The notes under the pieces: generated by a model
What the model was told of the DNA's origin: nothing
The model's database searches: none
What the model saw: only the letters and a program-made list of their open reading frames with translations
Made by a program: the position numbers and the translations under genes
Shown here: piece by piece, positions 25,009 through 41,837 of the stretch
How positions within the stretch are numbered: position 1 is the stretch's first letter
How the letters are laid out: each line of letters begins with the position of its first letter
Source: an uncultured Celeribacter sp.
GTDB lineage: Bacteria; Pseudomonadota; Alphaproteobacteria; Rhodobacterales; Rhodobacteraceae
DNA: 41,837 nucleotides
Assembly (NCBI GenBank): GCA_938008015.1
Contig: CALLMA010000005.1
Span: 1 to 41,837, forward strand
Direction: 5' to 3'

Positions 25009-26019
25009 ATGGACGCTGTAATCACTTGGGTTGACGGAACCGATCCTCAACATAAAGCGAAAAGAATAAAGGCTATGAGCGAAAATGGCTTTCTAACATC
25101 AAAACCATCGAATGCAACGTATGAAACTCGATTCACTGATTGTGGTGAAATTTACTTTTCTATTGCCTCCATCTTAAAATACGCTCCGTTTATAGAAACA
25201 ATTTATATAATCACCGATGATCAAACCCCAAAATATCTGCGCGCGTTTGAGCAAGAAGAGATTTGCGGTGCTACTAAAATTAAAGTGGTCAGCCACAAAG
25301 AAATATACCAAGGGTTTGAAGAATATCTACCAACATTCAATTCGTTAGCTATTGAAACCTTGTTGTGGAGAATTCCAGGTCTCTCTGAAAGCTTCATATA
25401 TTTAAATGATGACTTCTTTTTTAATGCCCCCACTGGAATGGATGATTTTTACGACAGCGATAATAAGCTCAAAGTATGCGGCAACAAACGGTCAAATTTA
25501 CCCCTTAAGCTTAAACTGCGCATGCGAAAATGGCGGTACAAAATTCTTCGCAAAGGAAATCTTCCTGCGCATTACAAAACAGCACAAATGCTATCAGCCC
25601 TACTAGCCAAGCAAAAGCACTACATCCAAGTGGAGCACCATCCACATGCTTTAAGTAAAAAGGTTTTTGAGGATTTTTTTGCCCAGAACAAGACAATATT
25701 AGCCAAACAAATCCAACCAAAATTTCGCACCGCAGAGCAATTTCTACCTGTTGGTTTAAACAACCACATTTCTTTAAAAGAACACCAAGCTGCAGTTTAT
25801 CCCTCCCGTGAAGTTGTCTACATAAAACCGAACAACTACGATCAAAATTCACTAAAAGCATTAAAAGCTCGCGATATAAAATTTGCGTGTGTTCAAAGCC
25901 TAGATGAATTTTCAGCATCTGATGCTTTGGAATTGAAAAAGGTTCTGGTTAAGAAATTCTACGATTATTTACCCAGCGCTCTGCGATCATTATATGACGA
26001 TGAAACTGAAGAAAATTAA
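25009..26019 (+). CDS. Stealth-family sugar-phosphate transferase
   Basis: A 336-residue protein of the stealth family, whose members transfer sugar-1-phosphates when building capsules or exopolysaccharides. Conserved region 1 is the N-terminal MDAVITWVDGTDP (1-13). Region 2 runs from about 39, RFTDCGEIYFSIASILK.., through IYIITDDQTP to IYLNDDFFF at about 130-138. Region 3 is near HHPHALSKKVFEDFF (210-224). Region 4 is not obvious. It is cytoplasmic with no signal peptide. The coding sequence is more AT-rich than leuC before it and dxs after it, and no other capsule gene is near, which suggests acquisition or a solitary glycan-modifying role. Confidence 0.88.
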   Translation: MDAVITWVDGTDPQHKAKRIKAMSENGFLTSKPSNATYETRFTDCGEIYFSIASILKYAPFIETIYIITDDQTPKYLRAFEQEEICGATKIKVVSHKEIYQGFEEYLPTFNSLAIETLLWRIPGLSESFIYLNDDFFFNAPTGMDDFYDSDNKLKVCGNKRSNLPLKLKLRMRKWRYKILRKGNLPAHYKTAQMLSALLAKQKHYIQVEHHPHALSKKVFEDFFAQNKTILAKQIQPKFRTAEQFLPVGLNNHISLKEHQAAVYPSREVVYIKPNNYDQNSLKALKARDIKFACVQSLDEFSASDALELKKVLVKKFYDYLPSALRSLYDDETEEN

Positions 26020-37415: not shown

Positions 37416-38024
37416 TCATAAAGACTTCTTACCTTCCACTAAGGCTTCGATTTGCTCAAGAGCCACATTAATATCATCAAAACGAACTGCCTTCATATCA
37501 AAAGGTACCAAAAATTCCCACCAACGTATTTCAAGCAGCTTTAAAATAATTTCTTCGGGAAATCGAAATTTAATTACCCGAGCCGGTGTCCCAGCTACGA
37601 TTGCATAGGGAGGCACATCTTTATTAACAAAACTACCAGCCCCGATAATTGCACCATCGCCAACTACAACGCCTCGCCGTACAATTGCCTTGGCACCAAT
37701 CCAAACATCACTCCCCACGACGACATCTGGCAACTGCTTATGTTGGATCTTTTCGACTTTTCTATATTGTCGACGTATATAGTTGGGGTGGGATTTTTCT
37801 CTCCCAAAGTGAAAATTATTAAACTGAAAAGGATGTGTGCTTAACCAATCAGTTGGATGCTCAAAAGCATTGATATCCACATCTTCTGCTATTGAGCAAA
37901 AACGACCAATAACGGCAGCGTATCGAATTTTTGTGCCCGGCCTGGCATATGTATACCGTCCAATTTTTGCTTTTTTGGAGACAATACACCCCTCTAAGTT
38001 TACTGGCGCTTCAAGATTATCCAT
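37416..38024 (-). CDS. CatB-related O-acetyltransferase (left-handed beta-helix)
   Basis: A 202-residue hexapeptide-repeat acyltransferase expected to use acetyl-CoA. Repeats of the form IGRxxxI.. run over about 20-50 and 98-150. A loop [11 protein letters not shown] starts at candidate catalytic H56. The segment [13 protein letters not shown] (102-114) and the closing [13 protein letters not shown] are typical of CatB/xenobiotic and sugar O-acetyltransferases. The acceptor could be a drug or a surface sugar and cannot be told. It is more AT-rich than neighbouring genes and lies between two MATE 3' ends, both suggesting insertion. A 16-bp palindrome lies at 38133-38148, about 110 bp upstream. 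Confidence 0.9.
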
Positions 38025-39652: not shown

Positions 39653-40696
39653 TTAAAAAGGCATCGCATTGTCACGATGTGCTTTTTCAATATCTGAAAG
39701 AACCTCATCACTGAGCTTCATCGCGCTAGCGTCTAAAGATTTTTGGAGTTGCTCAACGGAGGTTCCGCCAATAATCGGCATAACATCGAAAGGCCGCGAA
39801 AGCGTCCAAGCAATAGCCATTGTTGTCGGATCAAGATCATGCTTTTTCGCAACATCAAGATAGGCTTGTGTCGCCTTCCATGCAGGCGCCGTCGTTCTGC
39901 CGCCCAATTTCCCATTCAAAGAAAGGCGCGAGCCTTCTGGGATCGTCTTGCCGCCTTGATATTTACCCGTCAACATACCGCACCCAAGGCATGAATACCC
40001 CAAAAGAGAGACTTCCTCATGGACCGCAAATTCCGCTAAATCCCCATCATAAAGCCGGCAGAGAAGAGAATATTCATTTTGAATAGATTGCATCTTTGGC
40101 GCACCTGTTTCTTGTGCAACTCTTTGCCATTGCGCCATTCCCCAAGCTGTTTCATTCGACGTGCCAAAAGCGCGCACTTTGCCCGATTTCTCGAGCGCAA
40201 TCATCGCTTCAGATACATCGCGCATATTCTCTAAAATAGCTTCTTTAGAAGGCTGGGTGCTTGGATCATATTCCCAAATTTGGCGGAAATGATAAGAGCC
40301 ACGATTTGGCCAATGCAACTGGAAGAGATCAATGTAATCTGTTTGCAGACGCTTCAATGAATTATCAACAGATTTGAGCATCGTCTCGGCCGTAATCTCA
40401 GGTGTCTTCATTCCTGGTGAGGCGCCCGCAATTTTCGTTGCCACAACCCAATCCTTGCGATTGCCGCGCGCAGCAAAATACTCACCAATGATTTCTTCTG
40501 TCGCCCCAAACGTATCTGGATGCATCGGGTTGACTGGATAAACATGGGCGGTATCCATAAAATCAACACCCACATCCTGAGAGAGATCGAGCTGCGCAAA
40601 AGCCTCTTCAGTGGTATTTTGCGTCCCCCAAGTCATTGTGCCCAAACAAATCTCAGAAACTTCAATGCCACTTGTGCCAATTTGCTTTTTCTGCAT
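39653..40696 (-). CDS. Aldo/keto reductase (Tas-like)
   Basis: A 347-residue NADPH-dependent (beta/alpha)8 barrel oxidoreductase. The catalytic tetrad is D48, Y53, K88 and H128 (FMDTAHVY, VATKI, FQLHWP). Length, and the insertion after VYPVNPMHPDTFG, match the Tas subgroup rather than the AKR5 enzymes. Substrate unknown. The frame extends to a TTG at 40714, but AAGG is placed 8 bases before the ATG at 40696, and the conserved start QKKQIGTSGIEVSEI fits it. Divergent from the gene at 40805. Confidence 0.93.
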   Translation of the reverse strand: MQKKQIGTSGIEVSEICLGTMTWGTQNTTEEAFAQLDLSQDVGVDFMDTAHVYPVNPMHPDTFGATEEIIGEYFAARGNRKDWVVATKIAGASPGMKTPEITAETMLKSVDNSLKRLQTDYIDLFQLHWPNRGSYHFRQIWEYDPSTQPSKEAILENMRDVSEAMIALEKSGKVRAFGTSNETAWGMAQWQRVAQETGAPKMQSIQNEYSLLCRLYDGDLAEFAVHEEVSLLGYSCLGCGMLTGKYQGGKTIPEGSRLSLNGKLGGRTTAPAWKATQAYLDVAKKHDLDPTTMAIAWTLSRPFDVMPIIGGTSVEQLQKSLDASAMKLSDEVLSDIEKAHRDNAMPF

Positions 40697-40804
40697 ATCT
40701 ATGCCCTTATTCAAAGTGAGTTATTCAATACAGTATCACTCTAAGCCATCTATGGCGCATGACAAGCGATAAAGAAAATGAATTAAGTTTTGGGGAGAAG
40801 GCAA

Positions 40805-41837
40805 ATGAAATGTGAAAAAGAAACAGTTGATCATTTGAGAGAGCGAGCAATAGAGATTTACAGCGATATTTCTGGCAAGGAAATCAAGGAAGACGAGCTC
40901 ACTGAGGCGATCTTAGGTATTGTAGGTGAAGACCATAAGGATGCTATGACGGACACAAAGAATTGTTTAGAGTTTTATGTAGCAAATTTGACAAATAGTA
41001 GTGCGAGAGGCCCTTCGCTAGCTTCATTAAAAGAGCTCAACAGCAGCGTTTTCGATGAAATTGTTACAAATGATGTAGTTAATAATATCACCAAAGAAAA
41101 ATTAGCTAGAAAATACCGAAGCAACGCTAAGAATTACGGTGATCTAAACGAAAAACAGATAGAGAAGATTGACACGCATAACTATAAAATAGAAAAAAAT
41201 AAGCTTCCAACCATCTTAAAATGGATTCAATCCACTGCAGAATTTACCAAATTCTTAAATAACAAACACGAAGCATCTAAGAAATTTTTAGAAAAAGGTA
41301 CCAACAAGCAAAACGTACTTAATGGAACAATTTCTGCCTATACTGATTTTATGAAACGTGCATTTAATGCTTGTGAATCAAATCAAGATAGGGCTGATTT
41401 CTTCGTTAAACATGTCGACAACCTACAAAAAATATACGGCCTTGGCCCAGCACTCGCTGCAAATTTTATCAAAGATTTATTCGCAATAGAGCTTGATAAA
41501 ACAGACCCACTAAACAACGAAAACCCAAAAGATAAACTCGCAGAGTGGTGCATTAAACCCGATATGCATGTGGCGAGAATGATGTATGTCATCACTGGAC
41601 GCGGTGAATACTCTGATGATCTTGTTAAAGAGAAGCAATCTGAAGTTAACAAACTCTACAAGGAAGAAAATCCATACATCAGCTGGCCACGATATGGAAA
41701 AAACGATAAAACTTCTGCCGAAGTGCGTATTATCTGTGATGTTTATGCTCTAGCAAAGGCAGCCGAATGCACACCTCTTGAGATCGATCGTCTTCTATAT
41801 CTCTGTGGTTCAGGCAATTTCGGCAAAAAAGGCGATG
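40805..41837 (+). CDS. Partial gene: protein with a helix-hairpin-helix glycosylase-like region
   Basis: The frame is open from the ATG at 40805 to the window edge: 344 codons and still running. GGGGAGAAGG lies just before the ATG. The N-terminal 200 residues are helical, Lys/Asn-rich and unfamiliar. Residues about 205-260 recall the HhH-GPD DNA glycosylase fold: IYGLGPALAANFI (210-222) resembles the helix-hairpin-helix, and KPDMHVAR (251-258) resembles the segment with the catalytic aspartate (D253), as in VDTHVFR of endonuclease III. The lysine of bifunctional glycosylases is not present at the matching place (GLGPALA). A later segment, ALAKAAECTPLEIDRLLY, follows. Base composition is much more AT-rich than the aldo/keto reductase beside it. 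The assignment is tentative; product and true C-terminus are unseen. Confidence 0.7.
   Translation, partial: MKCEKETVDHLRERAIEIYSDISGKEIKEDELTEAILGIVGEDHKDAMTDTKNCLEFYVANLTNSSARGPSLASLKELNSSVFDEIVTNDVVNNITKEKLARKYRSNAKNYGDLNEKQIEKIDTHNYKIEKNKLPTILKWIQSTAEFTKFLNNKHEASKKFLEKGTNKQNVLNGTISAYTDFMKRAFNACESNQDRADFFVKHVDNLQKIYGLGPALAANFIKDLFAIELDKTDPLNNENPKDKLAEWCIKPDMHVARMMYVITGRGEYSDDLVKEKQSEVNKLYKEENPYISWPRYGKNDKTSAEVRIICDVYALAKAAECTPLEIDRLLYLCGSGNFGKKGD

Follow-up and report, generated by a model that had tools for sequence, protein, structure and literature searches.

A contig-end gene of an uncultured Celeribacter sp. belongs to an unnamed mobile protein family with motifs resembling those of HhH-GPD DNA glycosylases

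Results

The window, by which is meant the whole 41,837-nt stretch analysed here, is one entire contig (C5) of an uncultured Celeribacter genome of 2.0 Mb in 137 contigs, estimated to be 85.7% complete. At its right-hand edge, on the forward strand, an ATG at 40805 opens a frame of 344 stop-free codons (40805-41836) that is still open where the window, and with it the contig, ends. A probable ribosome-binding site, GGGGAGAAGG, can be read directly in the sequence ahead of the ATG (40792-40801, forward strand). The gene, whose protein is here called P0001, is truncated by the contig end, and the full-length protein of a relative described below has 510 aa. The 28 bases at the contig's end were found nowhere else in the assembly, even when one mismatch was allowed. 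The gene on the other side, encoding an aldo/keto reductase (AKR; 39653-40714, reverse strand), starts 90 bases from the P0001 ATG and is treated as context, outside the proposed system.

Four segments of P0001, all on the forward strand, are of interest. The N-terminal motif ANLTNSSARGP (residues 60-70, 40982-41014) reads ANLLNSGARGP in one relative. A helix-hairpin-helix-like segment (residues 204-224, 41414-41476) has Ala216 at the position of the endonuclease III lysine and is followed by KPDMHVAR (residues 251-258, 41555-41578), whose D253, present in all three family members, is proposed as the catalytic aspartate. The fourth, DRLLYLCGSGNF (residues 328-339, 41786-41821), is a C-terminal stretch that the family conserves strongly. 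An earlier note on this DNA had described an open frame at the window edge with a hairpin-like stretch and an aspartate recalling DNA glycosylases but lacking the lysine of bifunctional enzymes, and frame, hairpin-like stretch, aspartate and missing lysine are all present as it described them. The long helical N-terminus that it also proposed is predicted solely by low-confidence AlphaFold models.

Searches of family libraries did not place P0001. It matched no Pfam family at E-values up to 10, no PADLOC family, and in NCBIfam only two unrelated models, at 0.11 and 2.2. The first of these, a phasin model, was taken as chance, as were PHROG 15112 (function unnamed; 38 residues, E 0.006), a match of the C-terminal part to a geminivirus model at 0.22, and PDB sequence matches at 0.33 and 0.25. 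The proteins of the two relatives likewise matched no PADLOC family, and across Pfam, NCBIfam, PADLOC and the PDB sequences nothing reached significance.

The relatives themselves came from scans of a genome collection. An exact-peptide scan gave no relative of P0001; a second scan, which used relaxed motifs set out as an artificial alignment (A3) and covered genomes of 84,980 species, gave 31 stretches, two of which were confirmed by tblastn with the whole 149-aa fragment: one in Caenimonas sedimenti (locus L026, 2e-14) and one in a beta-proteobacterial MAG (locus L027, 1e-12), these E-values being relative to the candidate stretches only. Both fit the pattern D[RN]LL[YW]L[CI]GS (also given as DRLLYL[CI]GS) and neither fits the KPD pattern of the scan. 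Because the relatives fit only DRLLYL[CI]GS, the pattern stage did not select on the hairpin or the aspartate. P0001 and the L026 protein (P0002) share 26% identity over 340 columns (residues 29-339, E 4e-23 in a single BLASTP comparison), and the L026 and L027 proteins 44% over 222 columns. The L027 protein is without the N-terminal part, its frame lying near a contig end and being open only from about base 98, with stops before. A second, weak match in the L027 genome had an E-value of 0.48 and was disregarded.

No relative of P0001 was found in plasmids, and none came from seven scans of viral contigs, and none of P0002 in plasmids and phages at E-values up to 1. Matches of P0001 to Streptococcus satellite phages (E 0.09-2) fell in genes for virulence-associated protein E or hypothetical proteins and were taken as chance. 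The genome scans and the two viral-scan patterns detect only sequences that fit the patterns and measure rarity poorly. P0001 is a member of a mobile family that is unnamed in the libraries searched and has three known members.

Both the composition and the position of the gene are foreign to its surroundings. Its GC content is 37.4%, against 46.9 ± 2.9% in 37 other ORFs of the window chosen mechanically (z = -3.3), and its GC3 is 34.3% against 44.0 ± 4.4% (z = -2.2); among the 38 ORFs it ranks lowest in GC and second lowest in GC3. At an E-value of 0.001 P0001 was not found in 60 further genomes (19 from the same genus, 17 from the same family, 24 from the same class), nor in 384 other genomes of the class. 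At an E-value of 1, 21 of 398 genomes were matched, with a best E of 0.0165 among the 20 others, and the two of these 20 loci that were inspected were judged by eye to be unrelated. With the own genome included, these counts are 1/61, 1/385 and 21/398. At phylum level the family profile (A4) matched the own genome only (1/398, the 397 other genomes being without a match at an E-value of 0.001); the draws of 60, 384 and 397 genomes may overlap. In the order of L026 the profile matched 4 of 399, namely the L026 genome and three others at 0.002-0.004 in the tail region only.

The AKR gene has counterparts in 18 genomes of the genus, and 12 of the 18 loci were fetched. Beyond the AKR start, in the place taken by the P0001 gene in the window, all 12 carry metG, pointing away from the AKR gene. 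It adjoins AKR directly in ten loci, with 216-377 bases between AKR residue 7 and metG residue 9, and follows after about 1 kb in the other two (1102 and 1220 bases); the place may accept insertions repeatedly. The two longer gaps belong to L062 and L064, and that of L062 holds an SDR-like ORF. In the window's own assembly metG was not found, by a search that found it in 12 of 12 relatives' loci and had no whole-genome positive control. The simplest account, we infer, is that the assembly broke at an insertion between AKR and metG. Because it stands where relatives have metG, the P0001 gene was probably acquired from elsewhere, and the transfer suggested in the earlier note is well supported by the low GC content, the absence from 60 genomes and the position beside the AKR gene.

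Two other genes of the window also stand out in composition. One encodes a Stealth-family protein (25009-26019; PF11380 1.5e-31, PF17101 1.2e-9; GC 38%); the other, a hexapeptide-repeat transferase gene between aminotransferase and MATE genes (37416-38024), ranks lowest in GC3 (33%) among the ORFs compared. Either was possibly acquired too.

The glycosylase-like motifs were compared across the family and with true HhH-GPD proteins. The hairpin-like segment reads IYGLGPALAANFIKD in the window, FPQVGVAVGMNFLKD in L026 and FPKVGVAVAMNFFKD in L027, and is followed in all three members, in the same order, by KPD[MK]H[VI]xR; endonuclease III of the reference genomes has LPGVGRKTANVVL...VDTHIFR for comparison. 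A helix-hairpin-helix and then a catalytic-type aspartate, the motif-level mark of HhH-GPD proteins, are accordingly found in each member, while the lysine that marks bifunctional enzymes is replaced by alanine in each. The family departs from endonuclease III in spacing, with 37 residues from the lysine position to the aspartate against 18, and in the hairpin, where L026 has PQVG and L027 PKVG in place of PGVG, the first glycine being missing. The pair of motifs arose in none of 20,000 shuffles of P0001, and among 1686 ORFs (overlapping loci included) it occurred only in the P0001 family, with 0.05 expected per shuffled pass; the pattern was written after the motif had been seen and recognises only 13 of the 40 true HhH-GPD proteins. 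At the level of sequence, the motif pair is more than chance. Two further resemblances to endonuclease III, seen by eye only, are suggestive: that of the ANLTNSSARGP loop to AVLLSAQATDVGVNKAT (the LSAQATD loop) and that of DRLLYLCGSGNF to HWLILHGRYTC.

In profile comparisons the resemblance to HhH-GPD is weak. PF00730 gave no match to P0001 at E-values up to 10 and none to the L026 and L027 proteins up to 0.1; the same model found matches in the own genome and in every one of 19 other and 14 control genomes. Because this profile was tested and gave no match, P0001 is not filed as an HhH-GPD member and is claimed only to be most likely to work like one. A reference set was drawn from 46 of 57 places and one further locus (47 loci), of whose proteins 40 were kept, seven being without the required motif, and 30 of the 40 were assigned to three groups. 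Against the HhH-GPD groups, hhalign gave a probability of at most 1.9%, and the real score was reached by 28 of 200 column shuffles for endonuclease III, 6 for MutY, 103 for AlkA and 3 for the pooled groups, the AlkA group (three sequences) thus doing no better than shuffles. The best alignment sets the hairpin of the P0001 family on those of endonuclease III and MutY.

AlphaFold (AF2) models had a mean pLDDT of 40.4 from the single sequence and 40.8 with three sequences. The best fold matches to these poor models (Z 4.1 and 5.6) were unrelated helical proteins, taken as noise, and the absence of an HhH-GPD chain among the fold matches listed, from models at pLDDT 40-41, excludes nothing. The glycosylase-like hairpin and aspartate of the earlier note find support in the motifs and in their conservation in two relatives, and none in the profiles or in a usable fold model; as a whole, its interpretation is plausible and in part supported.

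The surroundings of the relatives were searched for defence genes, as the earlier note had also proposed. In L026 a DUF2779 gene (2.1e-23) lies directly upstream of the P0002 gene on the same strand and is itself preceded by a divergent gene for a WYL-domain regulator (4.6e-9). On the downstream side, 18 bases past the stop codon of the P0002 gene, is a nucleotidyltransferase gene (L026 10970-11665) matching the PADLOC candidate PDC-M05A at 8.9e-84. A HipA gene with an HTH partner follows about 4 kb further on, and a GmrSD_N gene (PADLOC NsnA, 1.8e-33) lies about 11 kb away on the other side; the genes in between include ordinary ones, such as those of a LysR regulator, an M50 peptidase and an APH-family phosphotransferase. 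No PADLOC model matched the DUF2779 protein or HipA. The P0002 gene has a GC content of 59%, against 65-69% in the surrounding loci. DUF2779 (PF11074) is described as a presumed 3'-5' exonuclease that occurs together with DUF83, a domain similar to PD-(D/E)XK nucleases (PMC3985635), and WYL regulators are reported to co-localise with phage defence systems (PMC9122601). The PDC-M05A nucleotidyltransferase has relatives in 12 plasmid records.

The idea that DUF2779 and P0001-family genes form a fixed pair was set aside: of six plasmid relatives of the DUF2779 protein, the three examined have other neighbours and no P0002 relative. The one from Comamonas has type I restriction genes nearby, and a gene for a nucleotidyltransferase.

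The L027 gene has the GC content of its surroundings (58% and 57%), and no DUF2779 protein was found among the six ORFs scanned after it. PADLOC scores in its neighbourhood (IetA 1.1e-34, DEDDh 7.9e-19) look like those of generic ATPase and exonuclease domains. The region after the relative (L027 1661-10132) carries genes for an AAA ATPase, an unassigned protein and an M41-AAA protease, followed on the opposite strand by those for a VWA protein and a DEDDh-type exonuclease; the group may be a system of its own. A defence-like context is thus seen in L026 alone, with DUF2779 and PDC-M05A, while L027 is ambiguous and the contig of P0001 ends before any neighbour on that side.

Discussion

The reading we favour, at a probability slightly better than even, is that P0001 belongs to an undescribed family and is a horizontally acquired, monofunctional DNA glycosylase built like the HhH-GPD enzymes, perhaps serving defence. 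The gene, its foreign composition and position, the family and the conserved motifs are observed; the fold, catalysis, substrate and defence role are inferred, the mechanism by analogy with HhH-GPD enzymes. On that model the helix-hairpin-helix of residues 204-224 would grip the DNA backbone and, once a base had flipped out, the N-terminal ANLxNSxARGP loop would occupy the space it left. With the assistance of D253, water would attack the glycosidic bond and, with alanine at the lysine position, an abasic site would be left and the strand would stay uncut; in L026 the nuclease encoded next door could go on to degrade the DNA. As predicted substrate, a base of foreign DNA is suggested by the mobile setting and by the neighbours of one relative.

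The closest known design is the endonuclease III branch of HhH-GPD (PF00730), in which, as in the P0001 family, the hairpin is followed by D-x-H-[VI]-x-R. By eye, both also have an N-terminal helix-loop motif and a C-terminal hydrophobic helix ending in G. The P0001 family differs in having no PF00730 match, alanine for lysine and an insert about twice as long. The iron-sulphur site of endonuclease III is located after the last helix that it shares with the L026 protein, and the latter, unlike endonuclease III, is without the cysteine cluster after that helix.

The same insert, from the hairpin to the aspartate, would suit a helix-hairpin-helix protein that binds DNA but is not a glycosylase, serving for instance as sensor or adaptor to a nuclease like DUF2779, with D253 and H255 in structural roles. 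The absence of an HhH-GPD profile match and the nuclease gene adjoining the L026 gene point the same way. KPDxHxxR, however, stands where the catalytic aspartate is expected, and its Asp, His and Arg are kept in all three members at 26-44% identity, which makes this explanation rather unlikely, the best placed of the alternatives all the same.

The position of the gene bears on another account, namely that P0001 is a true, ordinary repair glycosylase that was transferred, removes a damaged base and has no part in defence. The place between AKR and metG may take ordinary genes, the gap being about 1 kb longer in two of 12 relatives, and most known HhH-GPD enzymes are repair enzymes, which counts in favour of this account. 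Against it are the neighbours in L026 (DUF2779 and PDC-M05A) and the patchy occurrence, with P0001 in none of 60 other genomes and two relatives from a scan of 84,980 species limited by two patterns; we regard it as quite unlikely. That P0001 is an all-helical protein of another kind, resembling the hairpin and aspartate by coincidence, would fit the want of a usable fold model and of a significant profile match, but is very unlikely given a motif pair absent from 20,000 shuffles and conserved in three of three members.

Should the monofunctional glycosylase reading hold, the family might be a third independent lineage of defence glycosylases, of HhH-GPD type, stripping modified bases from phage DNA, in some hosts beside a two-nuclease DUF2779 protein able, perhaps, to destroy the abasic DNA. 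This fuller proposal is doubtful. The anti-phage glycosylases Brig1 and Brig3, which belong to the uracil-DNA glycosylase superfamily (PMC11078745, PMC13160076), resemble P0001 only in the proposed role of base excision as defence, and P0001 differs from them in matching no profile of that superfamily (Pfam at E-values up to 10, NCBIfam). The restriction glycosylases of the PabI family, described as having the HALFPIPE fold and as part of restriction-modification systems (PMC10273834), are likewise similar only in the proposed role, base excision from foreign DNA, and P0001 shows no sign of that fold or of such a system. DUF2779 proteins are different proteins from P0001, one being encoded upstream of the L026 relative. 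In the open library searched, from which most subscription papers are absent, no HhH-type defence glycosylase was found to be reported.

Even as no more than a repair enzyme or DNA-binding protein, P0001 would represent a mobile family unnamed in the libraries searched. Phage defence by glycosylases of the UDG superfamily and base-excising restriction by the PabI fold are known already; an HhH defence glycosylase, if true, would mean that the main base-repair fold gave rise to this strategy once more, and could serve as a new enzyme for finding or removing modified bases.
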